Under the pieces are notes generated by a model, which was not told where the DNA came from, searched no databases, and was given only the letters and a program-made list of their open reading frames with translations. Position numbers and translations under genes: made by a program. A DNA stretch of 64,000 nt from Crossaster papposus (lineage: Eukaryota; Echinodermata; Asteroidea; Velatida; Solasteridae), in contig JBAIAA010001588.1 of assembly GCA_037893245.1 (NCBI GenBank), positions 1 through 64,000 on the forward strand, in the 5' to 3' direction. Numbering within the stretch: position 1 is the first letter of the stretch; each line of letters opens with the position of its first letter. Below, one piece after another: positions 5,245 to 20,400 of the stretch.

Positions 5245-7148
5245 AAACACATGATGTGGGAACAAGCCCTCGAGTTAAATATGTAAAGGGAAAGAAGTGT
5301 GCATAAGAAATATGTAAAGGGAAAGAAGTGTGCATAATAAATATGTAAAGGAAAAGAAGTGTGCATAATAAATATGTAAAGGGAAAGAAGTGTGCATAAG
5401 AAATATGTAAAGGGAAAGAAGTGTGCATAAGAAATATGTAAAGGGAAAGAAGTGTGCATAAGAAATATGTAAAGGGAAAGAAGTGTGCATAAGAAATATG
5501 TGAAGGGAAAGAAGTGTGCATAAGAAATATGTAAAGGGAAAGAAGTGTGCATAAGAAATATGTAAAGGGAAAGAAGTGTGCATAAGATATATGTAAAGGG
5601 AAAGAAGTGTGCATAAGAAATATGTAAAGGGAAAGAAGTGTGCATAAGAAATATGTAAAGGGAAAGAAGTGTGCATAAGAAATATGTAAAGAGAAAGAAG
5701 TGTGCATAAGAAATATGTAAAGGGAAAGAAGTGTACATAAGAAATATGTAAAGGGAAAGAAGTGTGCATAAGAAATATGTAAAGGGAAAGAAGTGTGCAT
5801 AAGGAATATGTAAAGGGAAAGAAGTGTGCATACGAAATATGTAAAGGGAAAGAAGTGTGCATAAGAAATATGTAAAGGGAAAGAAGTGTGCATAAGAAAT
5901 ATGTAAAGGGAAAGAAGTGTGCATAAGAAATATGTAAAGGGAAAGAAGTGTGCATAAGAAATATGTAAAGGGAAAGAAGTGTGCATAAGAAATATGTAAA
6001 GGGAAATAAGTGTGCATAAGAAATATGTAAAGGGAAAGAAGTGTGCATAAGAAATATGTAAAGGGAAAGAAGTGTGCATAAGAAATATGTAAAGGGAAAG
6101 AAGTGTGCATAAGAAATATGTAAAGGGAAAGAAGTGTGCATAAGAAATATGTAAAGGGAAAGAAGTGTGCATAAGAAATATGTAAAGGGAAAGAAGTGTG
6201 CATAAGAAATATGTAAAGGGAAAGAAGTGAGCATAAGAAATAAACACATGATGTGGGAACAAGCCCTCGAGTTAAATATGTAAAGGGAAAGAAGTGTGCA
6301 TAATAAATATGTAAAGGGAAAGAAGTGTGCATAATAAATATGTAAAGGGAAAGAAGTGTGCATAATAAATATGTAAAGGGAAAGAAGTGTGCATAAGAAA
6401 TATGTAAAGGGAAAGAAGTGTGCATAAGAAATATGTAAAGGGAAAGAAGTGTGCATAAGAAATATGTAAAGGAAAAGAAGTGTGCATAAGAAATATGTGA
6501 AGGGAAAGAAGTGTGCATAAGAAATATGTAAAGGGAAAGAAGTGTGCATAAGAAATATGTAAAGGGAAAGAAGTGTGCATAAGAAATATGTGAAGGGAAA
6601 GAAGTGTGCATAAGAAATATGTAAAGGGAAAGAAGTGTGCATAAGAAATATGTAAAGGGAAAGAAGTGTGCATAAGAAATATGTAAAGGGAAAGAAGTGT
6701 GCATAAGAAATATGTAAAGGGAAAGAAGTGTGCATAAGAAATATGTAAAGGGAAAGAAGTGTGCATAAGAAATATGTAAAGGGAAATAAGTGTGCATAAG
6801 AAATATGTAAAGGGAAAGAAGTGTGCATAAGAAATATGTAAAGGGAAAGAAGTGTGCATAAGAAATATGTAAAGGGAAAGAAGTGTGCATAAGAAATATG
6901 TAAAGGGAAAGAAGTGTGCACAAGAAATATGTAAAGGGAAAGAAGTGTGCATAAGAAATATGTAAAGGGAAAGAAGTGTGTATAAGAAATATGTAAAGGG
7001 AAAGAAGTGTGCATAAGAAATATGTAAAGGGAAAGAAGTGTGCATAAGAAATATGTAAAGGGAAAGAAGTGTGCATACGAAATATGTAAAGGGAAAGAAG
7101 TGTGCATAAGAAATAAACACATGATGTCGGGACAAGCCCTCGAGTTAA
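5245..7148 (+). repeat. Long-range duplicated block, left copy
   Basis: Runs from a type B spacer through TAAAGGAAAAG (5346), TGAAGGG (5501), GAGAAAG (5691), AAGGAATATG (5801), the AAGTGAGCAT junction before the 6242 spacer, and GTATAAG near 6980 to the type A spacer at 7115. The same order occurs at 23885-25726. Confidence 0.85.
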
Positions 7149-8450
7149 ATATGTAAAGGGAAACAAGTGTGCATAAGAAATAATAAAGGGAAAGAAGTGT
7201 GCATAAGAAATATGTAAAGGGAAAGAAGTGTGCATAAGAAATATGTAAAGGGAAAGAAGTGTGCATAAGAAATATGTAAAGGGAAAGAAGTGTGCATAAG
7301 AAATATGTAAAGGGAAAGAAGTGTGCATAAGAAATATGTAAGGGGAAAGAAGTGTGCATAAGAAATATGTAAAGGGAAAGAAGTGTGCATAAGAAATATG
7401 TAAAGGAAAAGAAGTGTGCATAAGAAATATGTAAAGGGCAAGAAGTGTGCATAAGAAATATGTAAAGGGAAAGAAGTGTGCATAAGAAATAAACACATGA
7501 TGTCGGGACAAGCCCTCGAGTTAAATATGTAAAGGGAAAGAAGTGTGCATAAGAAATAATAAAGGGAAAGAAGTGTGCATAAGAAATATGTAAAGGGAAA
7601 GAAGTGTGCATAAGAAATATGTAAAGGGAAAGAAGTGTGCATAAGAAATATGTAAAGGGAAAGAAGTGTGCATAGGAAATATGTAAAGGGAAAGAAGTGT
7701 GCATAAGAAATATGTAAAGGGAAAGAAGTGTGCATAAGAAATATGTAAAGGGAAAGAAGTGTGCATAAGAAATATGTAAAGGGAAAGAAGTGTGCATAAG
7801 AAATATGTAAAAGGAAAGAAGTGTGCATAAGAAATATGTAAAGGGAAAGAGGTGTGCATAAGAAATATGTAAAGGGAAAGAAGTGTGCATAAGAAATATG
7901 TAAAGGGAAAGAAGTGTGCATAAGAAATATGTAAAGGGAAAGAAGTGTGCATAAGAAATAATAAAGGGAAAGAAGTGTGCATAAGAAATATGTAAAGGGA
8001 AAGAAGTGTGCATAAGAAATATGTAAAGCGAAAGAAGTGTGCATAAGAAATATGTAAAGGGAAAGAAGTGTGCATAAGAAATATGTAAAGGGAAAGAAGT
8101 GTGCATAAGAAATAAACACATGATGTGGGAACAAGCCCTCGAGTTAAATATGTAAAGGGAAAGAAGTGTGCATAAGAAATATGTAAAGGGAAAGAAGTGT
8201 GCATAAGAAATATGTAAAGGGAAAGAAGTGTGCATAAGAAATATGTAAAGGGAAAGAAGTGTGCATAAGAAATATGTAAAGGGAAAGAAGTGTGCATAAG
8301 AAATATGTAAAGGGAAAGAAGTGTGCATAAGAAATATGTAAAGGGAAAGAAGTGTGCATAAGAAATATGTAAAGGGAAAGAAGTGTGCATAAGAAATATG
8401 TAAAGGGAAGGAAGTGTGCATAAGAAATATGTAAAGGGAAGGAAGTGTGC
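6760..8450 (+). repeat. 2.68-kb-spaced duplicated block, empty-site copy
   Basis: Shares with 9440-11780 the marker order: GGGAAATAAG, a CACAAG junction, GTATAAG, CATACG, type A spacer, 30-bp monomer, TAAGGGG, TAAAGGAAAAG, GGGCAAG, type A spacer, CATAGG, AAAAGG, GAGGTG, AATAATAAAG, AAAGCG, type B spacer, then two GGGAAGG monomers. Offset is 2680 before the transposon and 3335 after it. The unoccupied target lies at 7401-7406. Confidence 0.88.
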
Positions 8451-10080
8451 ATAAGAAATATGTAAAGGGAAAGAAGTGTGCATAAGAAATATGTAAAGGG
8501 AAAGAAGTGTGCATAAGAAATATGTAAACGGAAAGAAGTTTGCATAAAAAATATATGTAAAGGGAAAGAAGTGTGCATAAGAAATATGTAAAGGGAAAGA
8601 AGTGTGCATAAGAAATATGTAAAGGGAAAGAAGTGTGCATACGAAATATGTAAAGGGAAAGAAGTGTGCATAAGAAATATGTAAAGGGAAAGAAGTGTGC
8701 ATAAGAAATATGTAAAGGGAAAGAAGTGTGCATAAGAAATATGTAAAGGGAAAGAAGTGTGCATAAGAAATATGTAAAGGGAAAGAAGTGTGCATAAGAA
8801 ATATGTAAAGGGAAAGAAGTGTGCATAAGAAATATGTAAAGGGAAATAAGTGTGCATAAGAAATATGTAAAGGGAAATAAGTGTGCATAAGAAATATGTA
8901 AAGGGAAAGAAGTGTGCATAAGAAATATGTAAAGGGAAAGAAGTGTGCATAAGAAATATGTAAAGGGAAAGAAGTGTGCATAAGAAATATGTAAAGGGAA
9001 AGAAGTGTGCACAAGAAATATGTAAAGGGAAAGAAGTGTGCATAAGAAATATGTAAAGGGAAAGAAGTGTGTATAAGAAATATGTAAAGGGAAAGAAGTG
9101 TGCATATGAAATATGTAAAGGGAAAGAAGTGTGCATAAGAAATATGTAAAGGGAAAGAAGTGTGCATAAGAAATATGTAAAGGGAAAGAAGTGTGCATAA
9201 GAAATATGTAAAGGGAAAGAAGTGTGCATAAGAAATATGTAAAGGGAAAGAAGTGTGCATAAGAAATATGTAAAGGGAAAGAAGTGTGCATAAGAAATAT
9301 GTAAAGGGAAAGAAGTGTGCATAAGAAATATGTAAAGGGAAAGAAGTGTGCATAAGAAATATGTAAAGGGAAAGAAGTGTGCATAAGAAATATGTAAAGG
9401 GAAAGAAGTGTGCATAAGAAATATGTAAAGGGAAATAAGTGTGCATAAGAAATATGTAAAGGGAAATAAGTGTGCATAAGAAATATGTAAAGGGAAAGAA
9501 GTGTGCATAAGAAATATGTAAAGGGAAAGAAGTGTGCATAAGAAATATGTAAAGGGAAAGAAGTGTGCATAAGAAATATGTAAAGGGAAAGAAGTGTGCA
9601 CAAGAAATATGTAAAGGGAAAGAAGTGTGCATAAGAAATATGTAAAGGGAAAGAAGTGTGTATAAGAAATATGTAAAGGGAAAGAAGTGTGCATAAGAAA
9701 TATGTAAAGGGAAAGAAGTGTGCATAAGAAATATGTAAAGGGAAAGAAGTGTGCATACGAAATATGTAAAGGGAAAGAAGTGTGCATAAGAAATAAACAC
9801 ATGATGTCGGGACAAGCCCTCGAGTTAAATATGTAAAGGGAAAGAAGTGTGCATAAGAAATAATAAAGGGAAAGAAGTGTGCATAAGAAATATGTAAAGG
9901 GAAAGAAGTGTGCATAAGAAATATGTAAAGGGAAAGAAGTGTGCATAAGAAATATGTAAAGGGAAAGAAGTGTGCATAAGAAATATGTAAAGGGAAAGAA
10001 GTGTGCATAAGAAATATGTAAGGGGAAAGAAGTGTGCATAAGAAATATGTAAAGGGAAAGAAGTGTGCATAAGAAATATG

Positions 10081-10083
10081 TAA
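10081..10083. other. Left target-site duplication (TAA) of the 10084-10735 element
   Basis: TAA abuts the AGGCCCAG end of the element. The same TAA abuts the other end at 10736-10738. Removing the element plus one TAA restores the satellite exactly as it stands in the paralogous block at about 7394-7411. Because the target continues AGG after TAA, a 6-bp duplication TAAAGG with asymmetric ends is an alternative reading; the 3-bp reading gives perfectly paired terminal bases. Confidence 0.75.
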
Positions 10084-10154
10084 AGGCCCAGTCCCACTGC
10101 ACTTGCGCACGAATTACTCATGAATTGCGCATAAAATTTTCTTTGTGCGTGATT
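10084..10154 (+). repeat. Left terminal inverted repeat of the transposon
   Basis: The outer 17 bp are nearly identical to the reverse complement of the right end. The inner block 10127-10154 (GCGCATAAAATT then a TTTGTGCGTGATT core) matches the reverse complement of 10665-10691 with a two-base difference and a one-base gap. The middle (10101-10126) is similar but has diverged largely by C/T and G/A changes, as expected for CpG decay. The inner blocks lie at nearly the same distance from the two ends (43 and 44 bp). Confidence 0.85.
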
Positions 10155-10233
10155 CGTCAGTGATGTGCGTAAATCCCACGTGATTCACACGTGGAGCATC
10201 AGTTTTTGTAAGTGATTGTACGCGGAGACGGGT
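10145..10233 (+). repeat. Degenerate 11-bp tandem units, left interior of the transposon
   Basis: Reading in steps of 11 from 10145 gives units such as GTGCGTGATTC, GTCAGTGATGT, ACGTGATTCAC and AGTGATTGTAC, which share CGTG/AGTG-type cores in register. Individual units are only moderately similar, so this was judged by eye rather than by score. Confidence 0.6.
10176..10194. repeat. Perfect 7-bp inverted repeat with CACGTG cores
   Basis: CCACGTG at 10176-10182 and CACGTGG at 10188-10194 are separated by ATTCA. The arms can form a short hairpin, and each holds the palindrome CACGTG, the canonical E-box/G-box core. In a sequence built from CGTG-rich 11-bp units this may be chance; no function is claimed. 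Confidence 0.6.
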
Positions 10234-10296
10234 TTGTGCGCGATCGCCGGTTTTGAACGGTTCAAAAAAATTTCCACGCACAACGTGCGCGATTAT

Positions 10297-10504
10297 ACGC
10301 AGTTTATGCGCAGTTTATGCGCAATGTACGTAGTTTGGACGTGGAAGGTGCGTGATATGTGCGTGATATGTGCGTGTTCTGTCAGTGCGCCCTTCATCAG
10401 TGATACATGCGTGCTCCATGCGCGGACCGTACGTGATTCATCAGTGCTCGTGCGCTGTTCATGCGTGATCCATACGTGTTACATTCGCTATACATGCGTC
10501 GATT
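10297..10504 (+). repeat. Degenerate 11-bp tandem units, central interior of the transposon
   Basis: About 19 consecutive 11-bp steps with one 1-bp slip near 10449. The clearest runs are ACGCAGTTTAT then GCGCAGTTTAT (10297-10318), two identical GTGATATGTGC units (10352-10373), and a series of ATGCG or TACGTG starts at 10407, 10418, 10461 and 10494. The units share a purine, TGCGTG or ACGTG core and a T/C-rich end. Divergence between units is high, so the array is old or was under loose constraint. Confidence 0.75.
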
Positions 10505-10545
10505 GAACGTCAGAAATTGTATCGGGTTTGGGCTTGTGCGCTGTT

Positions 10546-10622
10546 GTGCGTGGAATGTTCGTTCTTTGTCAGTGATTGTAAGTGATACATGCGCAGTTTA
10601 TACGCGATTCATCGGTGATTCT
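10546..10622 (+). repeat. Degenerate 11-bp tandem units, right interior of the transposon
   Basis: Seven consecutive 11-bp steps: GTGCGTGGAAT, GTTCGTTCTTT, GTCAGTGATTG, TAAGTGATACA, TGCGCAGTTTA, TACGCGATTCA and TCGGTGATTCT. Several resemble units in the left and central parts (GTCAGTGAT and GCGCAGTTTA recur). Confidence 0.7.
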
Positions 10623-10664
10623 GACCACGCACAACCCCAGAAAATGACCAATTTCTCCACGAAC

Positions 10665-10735
10665 AATCACGCACAAACCAATTTTATGCGCGATTTATGC
10701 GTGATTTATGCGTCATTGGCAATGGGACTGGGCCT
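10665..10735 (-). repeat. Right terminal inverted repeat of the transposon
   Basis: Inverted partner of the left end. It holds AATCACGCACAAACC and ATTTTATGCGC inside and ends ATGGGACTGGGCCT. Within it, 10685-10717 reads as three consecutive 11-bp units with ATGCG starts, so the terminal repeat shares the rhythm of the element interior. Confidence 0.85.
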
Positions 10736-10738
10736 TAA
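10736..10738. other. Right target-site duplication (TAA)
   Basis: Direct copy of the TAA at 10081-10083. The satellite resumes from here in the register of position 7401 of the paralogous block. Confidence 0.75.
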
Positions 10739-13567
10739 AGGAAAAGAAGTGTGCATAAGAAATATGTAAAGGGCAAGAAGTGTGCATAAGAAATATGTAA
10801 AGGGAAAGAAGTGTGCATAAGAAATAAACACATGATGTCGGGACAAGCCCTCGAGTTAAATATGTAAAGGGAAAGAAGTGTGCATAAGAAATAATAAAGG
10901 GAAAGAAGTGTGCATAAGAAATATGTAAAGGGAAAGAAGTGTGCATAAGAAATATGTAAAGGGAAAGAAGTGTGCATAAGAAATATGTAAAGGGAAAGAA
11001 GTGTGCATAGGAAATATGTAAAGGGAAAGAAGTGTGCATAAGAAATATGTAAAGGGAAAGAAGTGTGCATAAGAAATATGTAAAGGGAAAGAAGTGTGCA
11101 TAAGAAATATGTAAAGGGAAAGAAGTGTGCATAAGAAATATGTAAAAGGAAAGAAGTGTGCATAAGAAATATGTAAAGGGAAAGAGGTGTGCATAAGAAA
11201 TATGTAAAGGGAAAGAAGTGTGCATAAGAAATATGTAAAGGGAAAGAAGTGTGCATAAGAAATATGTAAAGGGAAAGAAGTGTGCATAAGAAATAATAAA
11301 GGGAAAGAAGTGTGCATAAGAAATTTGTAAAGGGAAAGAAGTGTGCATAAGAAATATGTAAAGCGAAAGAAGTGTGCATAAGAAATATGTAAAGGGAAAG
11401 AAGTGTGCATAAGAAATATGTAAAGGGAAAGAAGTGTGCATACGAAATAAACACATGATGTGGGAACAAGCCCTCGAGTTAAATATGTAAAGGGAAAGAA
11501 GTGTGCATAAGAAATATGTAAAGGGAAAGAAGTGTGCATAAGAAATATGTAAAGGGAAAGAAGTGTGCATAAGAAATATGTAAAGGGAAAGAAGTGTGCA
11601 TAAGAAATATGTAAAGGGAAAGAAGTGTGCATACGAAATATGTAAAGGGAAAGAAGTGTGCATAAGAAATATGTAAAGGGAAAGAAGTGTGCATACGAAA
11701 TATGTAAAGGGAAAGAAGTGTGCATAAGAAATATGTAAAGGGAAGGAAGTGTGCATAAGAAATATGTAAAGGGAAGGAAGTGTGCATAAGAAATATGTAA
11801 AGGGAAAGAAGTGTGCATAAGAAATATGTAAAGGGAAAGAAGTGTGCATAAGAAATATGTAAAGGGATAGAAGTGTGCATAAGAAATATGTAAAGGGAAA
11901 GAAGTGTGCATAAGAAATATGTAAAGGGAAAGAAGTGTGCATAAGAAATATGTAAAGGGAAAGAAGTGTGCATAAGAAATATGTAAAGGGAAAGAAGTAG
12001 TGTGCATAAGAAATATGTAAAGGGAAAGAAGTGTGCATAAGAAATATGTAAAGGGAAAGAAGTGTGCATAAGAAATATGTAAAGGGAAAGAAGTGTGCAT
12101 AATAAATATGTAAAGGGAAAGAAGTGTGCATAAGAAATATGTAAAGGGAAAGAAGTGTGCATAAGAACTATGTAAAGGGAAAGAAGTGTGCATAAGAAAT
12201 ATGTAAAGGGAAAGAAGTGTGCATAAGAAATATGTAAAGGGAAAGAAGTGTGCATAAGAAATATGTAAAGGGAAAGAAGTGTGCATAAGAAATATGTAAA
12301 GGGAAAGAAGTGTGCATAAGAAATATGTAAAGGGAAAGAAGTGTGCATAAGAAATATGTAAAGGGAAAGAAGTGTGCATAAGAAATATGTAAAGGGAAAG
12401 AAGTGTGCATAAGAAATATGTAAAGGGAAAGAAGTGTGCATAAGAAATATGTAAAGGGAAAGAAGTGTGCATAAGAAATATGTAAAGGGAAAGAAGTGTG
12501 CATAAGAAATATGTAAAGAGAAAGAAGTGTGCATAAGAAATATGTAAAGGGAAAGAAGTGTGCATAAGAAATATGTAAAGGGAAAGAAGTGTGCATAAGA
12601 AATATGTAAAGGGAAAGAAGTGTGCATCAGAAATATGTAAAGGGAAAGAAGTGTGCATAAGAAATATGTAAAGGGAAAGAAGTGTGCATAAGAAATATGT
12701 AAAGGGAAAGAAGTGTGCATAAGAAATATGTAAAGGGAAAGAAGTGTGCATAAGAAATATGTAAAGGGAAAGAAGTGTGCATAAGAAATATGTAAAGGGA
12801 AAGAAGTGTGCATAAGAAATATGTAAAGGGAAAGAAGTGTGCATAAGAAATATGTAAAGGGAAAGAAGTGTGCATAAGAAATATGTAAAGGGAAAGAAGT
12901 GTGCATAGGAAATATGTAAAGGGAAAGAAGTGTGCATAAGAAATATGTAAAGGGAAAGAAGTGTGCATAAGAAATATGTAAAGGGAAAGAAGTGTGCATA
13001 AGAAATATGTAAAGGGAAAGAAGTGTGCATAAGAAATATGTAAAGGGAAAGAAGTGTGCATAAGAAATATGTAAAGGGAAAGAAGTGTGCATAAGAAAAA
13101 TGTAAAGGGAAAGAAGTGTGCATAATAAATATGTAAAGGGAAAGAAGTGTGCATAAGAAATATGTAAAGGGAAAGAAGTGTGCATAAGAAATATGTAAAG
13201 GGAAAGAAGTGTGCATAAGAAATATGTAAAGGGAAAGAAGTGTGCATAAGAAATATGTAAAGGGAAAGAAGTGTGCATAAGAAATATGTAAAGGGAAAGA
13301 AGTGTGCATAAGAAATATGTAAAGGGAAAGAAGTGTGCATAAGAAATATGTAAAGGGAAAGAAGTAGTGTGCATAAGAAATATGTAAAGGGAAAGAAGTG
13401 TGCATAAGAAATATGTAAAGGGAAAGAAGTGTGCATAAGAAATATGTAAAGGGAAAGAAGTGTGCATAAGAAATATGTAAAGGGAAAGAAGTGTGCATAA
13501 GAAATATGTAAAGGGAAAGAAGTGTGCATAAGAAATATGTAAAGGGAAAGAAGTGTGCATAAGAAAT

Positions 13568-18633: not shown

Positions 18634-20400
18634 ATCAGAAATATGTAAAGGGAAAGAAGTGTGCATCAGAAATATGTAAAGGGAAAGAAGTGTGCATAAG
18701 AAATATGTAAAGGGAAAGAAGTGTGCATAAGAAAAGTGTAAAGGGAAAGAAGTGTGCATAAGAAATATGAAAAGGGAAAGAAGTGTGCATAAGAAATATG
18801 TAAAGGGAAAGAAGTGTGCATAAGAAATATGTAAAGGGAAAGAAGTGTGCATAAGAAATATGTAAAGGGAAAGAAGTGTGCATAAGAAATATGTAAAGGG
18901 AAAGAAGTGTGCATAAGAAATATGTAAAGGGAAAGAAGTGTGCATAAGAAATATGTAATGGGAAAGAAGTGTGCATAAGAAATATGTAAAGGGAAAGAAG
19001 TGTGCATAAGAAATATGTAAAGGGAAAGAAGTGTGCATAAGAAATATGTAAAGGGAAAGAAGTGTGCATAAGAAATATGTACAGGGAAAGAAGTGTGCAT
19101 AAGAAATATGTAAAGGGAAAGAAGTGTGCATAAGACATATGTAAAGGGAAAGAAGTGTGCATAAGAAATATGTAAAGGGAAAGAAGTGTGCATAATAAAT
19201 ATGTAAAGGGAAAGAAGTGTGCATAAGAAATATGTAAAGGGAAAGAAGTGTGCATAAGAAATATGTAAAGGGAAAGAAGTGTGCATAAGAAATATGTAAA
19301 GGGAAAGAAGTGTGCATAAGAAATATGTAAAGGGAAAGAAGTGTGCATAAGAAATATGTAAAGGGAAAGAAGTGTGCATAAGAAATATGTAAAGGGAAAG
19401 AAGTGTGCATAAGAAATATGTAAAGGGAAAGAAGTGTGCATAAGAAATATGTAAAGGGAAAGAAGTGTGCATAAGAAATATGTAAAGGGAAAGAAGTGTG
19501 CATAAGAAATATGTAAAGGGAAAGAAGTGTGCATAAGAAATATGTAAAGGGAATGAAGTGTGCATAAGAAATAAACACATGATGTGGGAACAAGCCCTCG
19601 AGTTAAATATGTAAAGGGAAAGAAGTGTGCATAAGAAATAAACACATGATGTGGGAACAAGCCCTCGAGTTAAATATGTTAAGGGAAAGAAGTGTGCATA
19701 AGAAATATGTAAAGGGAAAGAAGTGTGCATAAGAAATATGTAAAGGGAAAGAAGTGTGCATAAGAAATATGTAAAGGGAAAGAAGTGTGCATAAGAAATA
19801 TGTAAAGGGAAAGAAGTGTGCATAAGAAATATGTAAAGGGAAAGAAGTGTGCATAAGAAATATGTAATGGGAAAGAAGTGTGCATAAGAAATATGTAAAG
19901 GGAAAGAAGTGTGCATAAGAAATATGTAAAGGGAAAGAAGTGTGCATAAGAAATATGTAAAGGGAAAGAAGTGTGCATAAGAAATATGTACAGGGAAAGA
20001 AGTGTGCATAAGAAATATGTAAAGGGAAAGAAGTGTGCATAAGACATATGTAAAGGGAAAGAAGTGTGCATAAGAAATATGTAAAGGGAAAGAAGTGTGC
20101 ATAAGAAATATGTAAAGGGAAAGAAGTGTGCATAAGAAATATGTAAAGGGAAAGAAGTGTGCATAAGAAATATGTAAAGGGAAAGAAGTGTGCATAAGAA
20201 ATATGTAAAGGGAAAGAAGTGTGCATAAGAAATATGTAAAGGGAAAGAAGTGTGCATAAGGAATATGTAAAGGGAAAGAAGTGTGCATAAGAAATATGTA
20301 AAGGGAAAGAAGTGTGCATAAGAAATATGTAAAAGGAAAGAAGTGTGCATAAGAAATATGTAAAGGGAAAGAAGTGTGCATAAGAAATATGTAAAGGGAA
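18634..20400 (+). repeat. 2.7-kb higher-order unit, copy 1
   Basis: CATCAG pair at 18634/18665, AAAAGTG and ATGAAAAGG monomers, the 19573 doublet, TAATGGG at 19867, ACAGGG at 19990, AAGACATATG at 20041 and AAAAGG at 20331. Repeated at 21345-23140. Confidence 0.85.
19573..19673 (+). repeat. Type B spacer doublet, 67-bp pitch
   Basis: Two type B spacers separated by one monomer; a GGGAATGAAG monomer precedes the doublet and an ATGTTAAGG monomer follows it. The same arrangement recurs at 22315 and 23255. Confidence 0.9.

Follow-up and report, generated by a model that had tools for sequence, protein, structure and literature searches.

An insertion in satellite DNA

The window (the whole stretch of DNA that was analysed, 64,000 bp) is filled by a satellite with a period of 31 bp, of which Tandem Repeats Finder (TRF) reported 2058 copies at positions 4-64000. 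After masking by frequent satellite 10-mers, 10087-10742 was the sole uncovered run longer than 13 bp. This run is the element, a sharp insertion of 652 bp in the 31-bp satellite DNA. A previous reading of the letters (the sequence-only reading) had described a transposon at 10084-10735; target-site duplication (TSD), terminal inverted repeats (TIRs) and an empty site show these coordinates to be exact and the insertion to be MITE-like. The locus has the following features:

10084-10735, no strand: non-autonomous transposon, MITE-like (TSD and TIRs, empty site, satellite 10-mer mask)
10081-10083, forward strand: left TSD, TAA (the empty site is ATATG-TAA-AGGAAAAG)
10736-10738, forward strand: right TSD, TAA (flank comparison, empty site)
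10084-10154, forward strand: left TIR, about 71 bp (gapped alignment, terminal identity)
10665-10735, reverse strand: right TIR, about 71 bp (gapped alignment, terminal identity)
6804-8003, forward strand: empty-site copy (this satellite segment lacking the element), junction 7403/7404

The flanks of the element were joined (600 bp each, with one TAA) and compared with the window. They match 6804-8003 over 1200 bp with 2 mismatches and no gap; the second-best site within the window reaches 98.5%. The AGGAAAAG variant to the right of the insertion is also present at the empty site. Since a near-identical empty site carries this variant too, the insertion postdates the duplication of this stretch of the array. 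In array terms, the element was inserted recently and with its units (see below) already in place. Most differences among these units should predate the insertion, and the recent arrival beside a near-identical empty target means that the design existed when the element moved. TTAA is the target of piggyBac and Kolobok elements. A target of this type was rejected, as the empty site reads GTAAA.

The satellite itself has an interspersed variant block (ACACATGATGT...CCCTCGAGTT), the ACACATGATGT core of which occurs in 45 exact copies at irregular spacing in the window (1-64000), and a compound unit of 67 bp was found by TRF at 19538-19707. A recent duplication at kilobase scale is seen between 6804-8003 and the flanks of the element at about 8950-11900 (2/1200 differences). 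The likeness of the flanks to the empty-site region extends for about 1.1 kb on each side, with more mismatches, and larger segments are therefore copied within the array.

In a gapped alignment, the two TIRs have 58 identical positions, 7 transitions, 5 transversions and 2 gap positions. The outermost 13 bp are identical and 16 of the outer 17 bp match. The terminus is AGGCCCAGTCCCACTG, starting with AGGCCC; the end sequence is also given as AGGCCCAGTCCCAYTG. According to the accessible part of PMC4482050, PIF/Harbinger elements use TWA targets, their first base is usually A or G and their TIRs are shorter than 60 bp in about 93% of families. The element has a 3-bp TWA target, with TAA on both sides and a single TAA at the empty site, and its ends start with a base of the A/G type.

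PMC2997013 covers 17 silkworm MITE families, and the nine ends given in its available part served for comparison with both ends of the element, using 20000 shuffles per comparison to determine significance. The left end agrees with BmMITE-4 (TWA, Tourist-like) at 12/16 positions and has the same terminus (2/20000 shuffles), and with BmMITE-5 (TWA) at 9/16 (412/20000). For the right end, the values are 11/16 (33/20000) and 8/16 (1698/20000), respectively. None of the other seven ends in this set falls below 5% with either end of the element. Among them, BmMITE-9 (ATT target) is the nearest non-TWA end to the left end (7/15, 1301/20000). BmMITE-6, a TWA family, gave no significant match to the left end (8/16, 3325/20000) or the right end (7/16, 6304/20000), which counts against the interpretation favoured below. 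Because of the TWA target, the A/G first base and the BmMITE matches, PIF/Harbinger appears to be the best superfamily placement. MITEs are short, non-coding and multi-copy; the element has 652 bp and no coding signal, and the window contains one copy of it (10-mer mask). The ends have no CACTA-type terminus: a 3-bp TSD is present and the terminus is AGGCCC.

The 11-bp unit

Self-identity at lag 11 in 10084-10735 is 0.441, compared with 0.253 in dinucleotide shuffles (z 11.0, 0/2000); across 80 lags, z in the shuffles never exceeds 4.8. The excess at this lag, which the sequence-only reading had proposed to check by autocorrelation, is therefore present and survives trimming of 60 bp from both ends (z 8.9). 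Of the multiples expected along with it, lag 22 gives a clear peak (0.363, z 6.3, 0/2000) and lag 33 a weak one (z 2.4, 13/2000). Fourier analysis, proposed for the same purpose, agrees in part: over its full length, the element has z 1.3 at period 11.0 and a higher value at period 10.0 (z 4.1), and with 60 bp trimmed off both ends z at period 11.0 is 3.5. The weak peak at 11.0 is ascribed to register slips.

A cyclic profile model (HMM) allowing indels and both strands was trained for unit lengths of 7-14. Length 11 was best: its gain was 199.4 nats, while lengths 10 and 12 reached 129.7 and 92.3, respectively. The maximum gain in 40 shuffles (lengths 9-12) was 42.0, obtained with 2 restarts versus 4 for the real sequence. 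The consensus of the unit is about TTYRTRCGYRA, and units cover 77% of the element on the HMM path (69% forward, 9% reverse). They are arranged as follows:

10103-10135, reverse strand: three outward-pointing units in the left TIR (HMM path; 16/22 matches at lag 11, 0/1000 shuffles)
10142-10225, forward strand: array 1 (HMM path; the weakest run, 40/1000 shuffles for 10145-10233)
10270-10382, forward strand: array 2 (HMM path; TRF 10293-10323 and 10348-10376)
10385-10510, forward strand: array 3 (HMM path; TRF, 43-bp period over 10393-10499)
10534-10621, forward strand: array 4 (HMM path)
10657-10677, reverse strand: two reverse units (HMM path), the outer one (10667-10677) being the inward unit of the right TIR
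10683-10715, forward strand: three outward-pointing units in the right TIR (HMM path; TRF 10683-10717, period 11, 3.2 copies)

The sequence-only reading had noted the unit length in both TIRs. The HMM path places three units pointing outward and one pointing inward in each of them, and the terminal tract 10685-10717 has 20/22 matches at lag 11 (0/1000 shuffles). The inward unit of the left TIR (10142-10152) is at the same time the first unit of array 1, which continues from it in register. All four interior arrays share their orientation, and the model places reverse units nowhere but in the left TIR and close to the right one. By eye, pieces of reverse units were seen at 10272-10284 and 10625-10637, and there is a reverse unit by eye in the first 12 bp of array 2, which fit poorly.

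The element had been described as a transposon whose whole body is organised in such units. This applies to 77% of it and fails for three spacers, in which no lag-11 excess was found (10226-10269, 10505-10545 and 10623-10656; 357, 731 and 180 of 1000 shuffles, respectively, at or above the observed value). Of the long runs named in support, 10297-10504 (118/197 matches at lag 11, 0/1000 shuffles) and 10546-10622 (30/66, 1/1000) are strong and 10145-10233 is weak (28/78). The first of these is not interrupted by one 1-bp slip only, as had been stated; its cores follow each other every 11 bp apart from steps of 9, 15 and 10 bp. For the interior as a whole, 26 of 34 core-to-core steps within runs are 11 bp, 6 are 10 bp and 2 are 9 bp (mean 10.7 bp), and the steps between runs are 15, 31 and 56 bp. 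CAG-, AAG- and then CG-cored units follow each other in the same order at 10195-10225 and 10565-10596, about 370 bp apart (by eye), which hints at the duplication of a multi-unit block.

The G of the unit core is constant in 46/46 units. The base preceding it is C in 37 units, A in 8 and G in 1, and T does not occur. In most of the flanking columns, the two transition states account for the bulk of the bases. Had all columns drifted alike, transitions would be expected in the CG core too, and they are absent there. When transitions in the CG core were compared with those in six pooled flanking columns, Fisher's test gave 1e-7 for the C column and 4e-9 for the G column, the tested columns having been picked after the data were seen. 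Neutral arrays were simulated as a control for alignment bias, using 60 star-like and 60 duplication-tree runs. An invariant column was obtained in 0/120 simulations. The observed column heterogeneity was reached in 0/60 star-like and 7/60 duplication-tree runs, the latter being an imperfect control with arrays more diverged than the real one (mean pair identity 0.47 vs about 0.57). The data favour a constrained CG core; the constraint is not proven, because duplication-tree simulations did match the heterogeneity in those runs.

Growth of the body and role of the units

Adjacent full forward units are alike at 7.26 of 11 positions, compared with 6.31 after permutation (19 pairs, 6/5000 permutations). 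Tandem growth is supported by this unusual likeness of adjacent units. For units 2, 3 and 4 apart, no significant excess likeness was found (1342, 799 and 298 of 3000 permutations, respectively), which weighs against this interpretation. Expansion of a short terminal motif was one of two options offered by the sequence-only reading, and it gains support from the unit in both TIRs, the start of array 1 off the left TIR and the likeness of neighbours. Stepwise local tandem duplication of an end motif fits. The body would have grown mainly via repeated tandem duplication of an 11-bp subterminal motif, with losses of 1-2 bp, and growth probably started from the inner side of the left end. A protein involved in mobilisation, which in PIF/Harbinger would be the Myb-like ORF1 protein, may recognise this motif as an accessory site; copies of the motif may have been held about one helical turn apart, and their CG core constrained. 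Mobilisation would depend on a transposase that acts in trans and is encoded elsewhere, in PIF/Harbinger a DDE transposase. The insertion itself, at a TAA, is recent, and a 64-kb satellite array that carries it looks eukaryotic.

We consider it fairly probable that the element is a non-autonomous MITE of the PIF/Harbinger type and, jointly, that its body grew from an end motif. Binding of a protein by the units is a separate and more tentative proposal, which we regard as possible. It draws, by analogy, on Harbinger3N_DR, whose TIRs are bound by the ORF1 protein (available part of PMC2836001), and on Galileo, whose THAP domain binds sites in the tandem repeats of its TIRs (available part of PMC3688188). 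For mPing/mPong, the authors of PMC9921582 argue, in the portion accessible, that internal sequences are probably not sequence-specific, and this speaks against the favoured reading. Going further, the MITE could be nearly all recognition site, with more than 40 degenerate CG-cored copies, whose core would be under selection, titrating or recruiting the DNA-binding protein of a partner. The motif would then have spread from one end through the body at about one turn apart within runs, and the non-autonomous element might out-recruit its autonomous source, either for mobilisation or against silencing. This extension is speculative and rather unlikely. If the interior is an expanded end motif, extra binding sites would be a directly testable explanation of why some MITEs out-compete their autonomous parents, whether through mobility or through evasion of silencing.

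The units may also do nothing, in which case the body would be a decayed minisatellite that grew by slippage inside a MITE. The greater likeness of adjacent units, the in-run length changes (all losses of 1-2 bp) and several unit columns that are about evenly split between two bases are in favour of such passive expansion. It conflicts with the invariant core G and with the absence of C-to-T changes before it despite many transitions in neighbouring columns, and also with the same unit sitting in both TIRs. Neutral simulations did not produce an invariant column, although the duplication-tree runs matched the heterogeneity in some cases. We rate passive expansion as somewhat unlikely. That the MITE trapped an unrelated 11-bp tandem repeat has a precedent in the capture of a satellite by a CACTA-like element (reported in the available part of PMC8978399). 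Here, the unit is found in both TIRs, array 1 continues from the inward unit of a TIR and the surrounding satellite is a 31-bp repeat rather than the 11-bp unit, so that capture of a foreign satellite is very unlikely indeed.

A body of regularly phased units had been suggested to present a binding surface along the DNA. This suggestion is not supported for the body as a whole: the maximum helical coherence of the interior (R 0.64) is no better than that of permuted steps (null mean 0.65), and a test at the single period 10.5 gives a marginal result (0.56 vs 0.40, 3.1% of permutations). One fixed helical face over the whole body was rejected on these grounds. A Z-DNA-prone or rotationally phased row of alternating octamers around CG would account for 28 alternating pyrimidine-purine runs of at least 8 bases containing CG, which cover 245 bases versus 66.9 +/- 19.5 in shuffles (0/1000). 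The excess fades for runs of at least 10 bases (90/1000 shuffles) and at least 12 bases (328/1000) and follows automatically from any repeated YRYRCGYR unit; it is a property of the unit itself. With helical coherence no higher than under permutation, a structural array of this kind is very unlikely. The units might instead recruit a protein which alters chromatin or DNA methylation, by analogy with VANC on VANDAL elements. VANDAL elements are Mutator-like elements of plants and there is no candidate protein in the present case, which makes such anti-silencing improbable, although the CpG content of the element exceeds expectation (observed/expected 1.54 versus 0.14 in the satellite) and its architecture is as described for VANC targets in the available part of PMC5735166.

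A coding or structured-RNA remnant with repeats at the level of peptide or RNA has a negligible probability. Of two forward open frames, 96 and 102 aa long and located within the element or overlapping it, neither has a Pfam match at the cut-off. The longest stop-free frame has 99 codons versus a shuffle mean of 108.7, with 599/1000 shuffles at or above, and a coding reading was rejected. No Rfam match was found for the element, and folding of the interior as DNA gives no support for hairpins (z -1.05); a structured RNA or hairpin interior was likewise rejected. The fold of the whole element is strong (z -10, 20 shuffles), which is ascribed to the inverted ends.

Relatives and known systems

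A blastn search of phage records with the element returned 5 records with matches of only 26-30 bp (E 0.7-2). The 15-base end occurs in 28 viral-contig stretches, none of which has the exact opposite end GGGACTGGGCC within 1500 bases, and a longer end pattern was found in 13 viral and 86 prokaryote-genome stretches (80 of the 86 listed). Opposed exact 12-base ends within 2500 bases were absent from the 127 viral/prokaryotic loci, a search which diverged ends would escape, and the top two lag-11 values among these loci come from L063 and L060, at stretches that contain runs of N. A satellite 24-mer had no match in viral contigs. No second family member was found in the viral and prokaryotic collections searched, a non-eukaryote scope that says little about the family; that neither a relative nor an autonomous partner appeared among the viral/prokaryotic sequences searched nevertheless weighs against the favoured reading. 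A scan of the element for bacterial consensus sites turned up 3 terminator-like sites, where 0.8 were expected, and no promoter-like site.

Using three tandem units as the pattern, 3 unrelated prokaryotic viral contigs were found (L128-L130). Their 11-bp direct-repeat arrays of 3-4 units have a similar pyrimidine-purine pattern and are located at L130:14024-14063, just upstream of a ParA-type ATPase gene, at L129:6917-6956, just before an open frame that is phage integrase-like by eye (no Pfam match at 0.001), and at L128:2301-2336. As in the element, three 11-bp units fit the same degenerate pattern; unlike it, they have only 3-4 units, no matching end pair was seen and the setting is prokaryotic. 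These short prokaryotic arrays were rejected as relatives and the likeness is taken as convergent. In the open-licence literature, no MITE with a body of 11-bp units was found, and exact-string searches gave no match for satellite strings; the 12-mer TGGGACTGGGCC occurs in an aptamer and a primer study (by title).

With Tourist-like elements of PIF/Harbinger (mPing, BmMITE-4), the element shares the 3-bp TWA target, a start with AGG and CCCACTG in the end, as well as the short length, the lack of a coding signal and a clean empty site. It differs from Tourist-like MITEs in that its body consists mostly of a degenerate 11-bp unit and its TIR of 71 bp is longer than the usual <60 bp. CACTA (En/Spm) elements resemble it in their 3-bp TSD and in units of 10-20 bp, direct and inverted, near the ends, as far as the available sources go; CACTA-like Jozin elements have 19-23 copies of a 12-bp subterminal unit (accessible part of PMC8978399). 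By eye, the CACTA 12-bp unit TATTTGCGTCAC, as given in the excerpted source, resembles units of the element such as TTTATGCGTCA, which is no reason to infer homology. The element has no CACTA terminus, and its units fill the interior rather than the subterminal regions only.

In Galileo/Foldback elements, tandem repeats are tied to terminal inverted repeats as well; the available source gives Galileo TIRs exceeding 1 kb and a transposase of the P-element kind, whereas the units described here fill the body between short TIRs. A VANDAL/VANC-type array is present in the element as regards architecture only. VANC21 binds YAGTATTAY motifs that form arrays of uniform orientation and spread through the formation of tandem repeats (available part of PMC5735166). 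Common to both are dense short motifs of the same orientation in non-coding DNA of a transposable element and tandem repeat formation; VANDAL differs in its motif (YAGTATTAY in VANDAL21) and in being protein-coding. The contrast with "ordinary MITEs" of unstructured or transposase-derived interior, which the sequence-only reading had drawn, was therefore too sharp, since short repeated units, some of them shown to act as binding sites, are documented in Galileo, VANDAL and CACTA transposons. The present element stands apart from these in that most of a short MITE is taken up by its unit.
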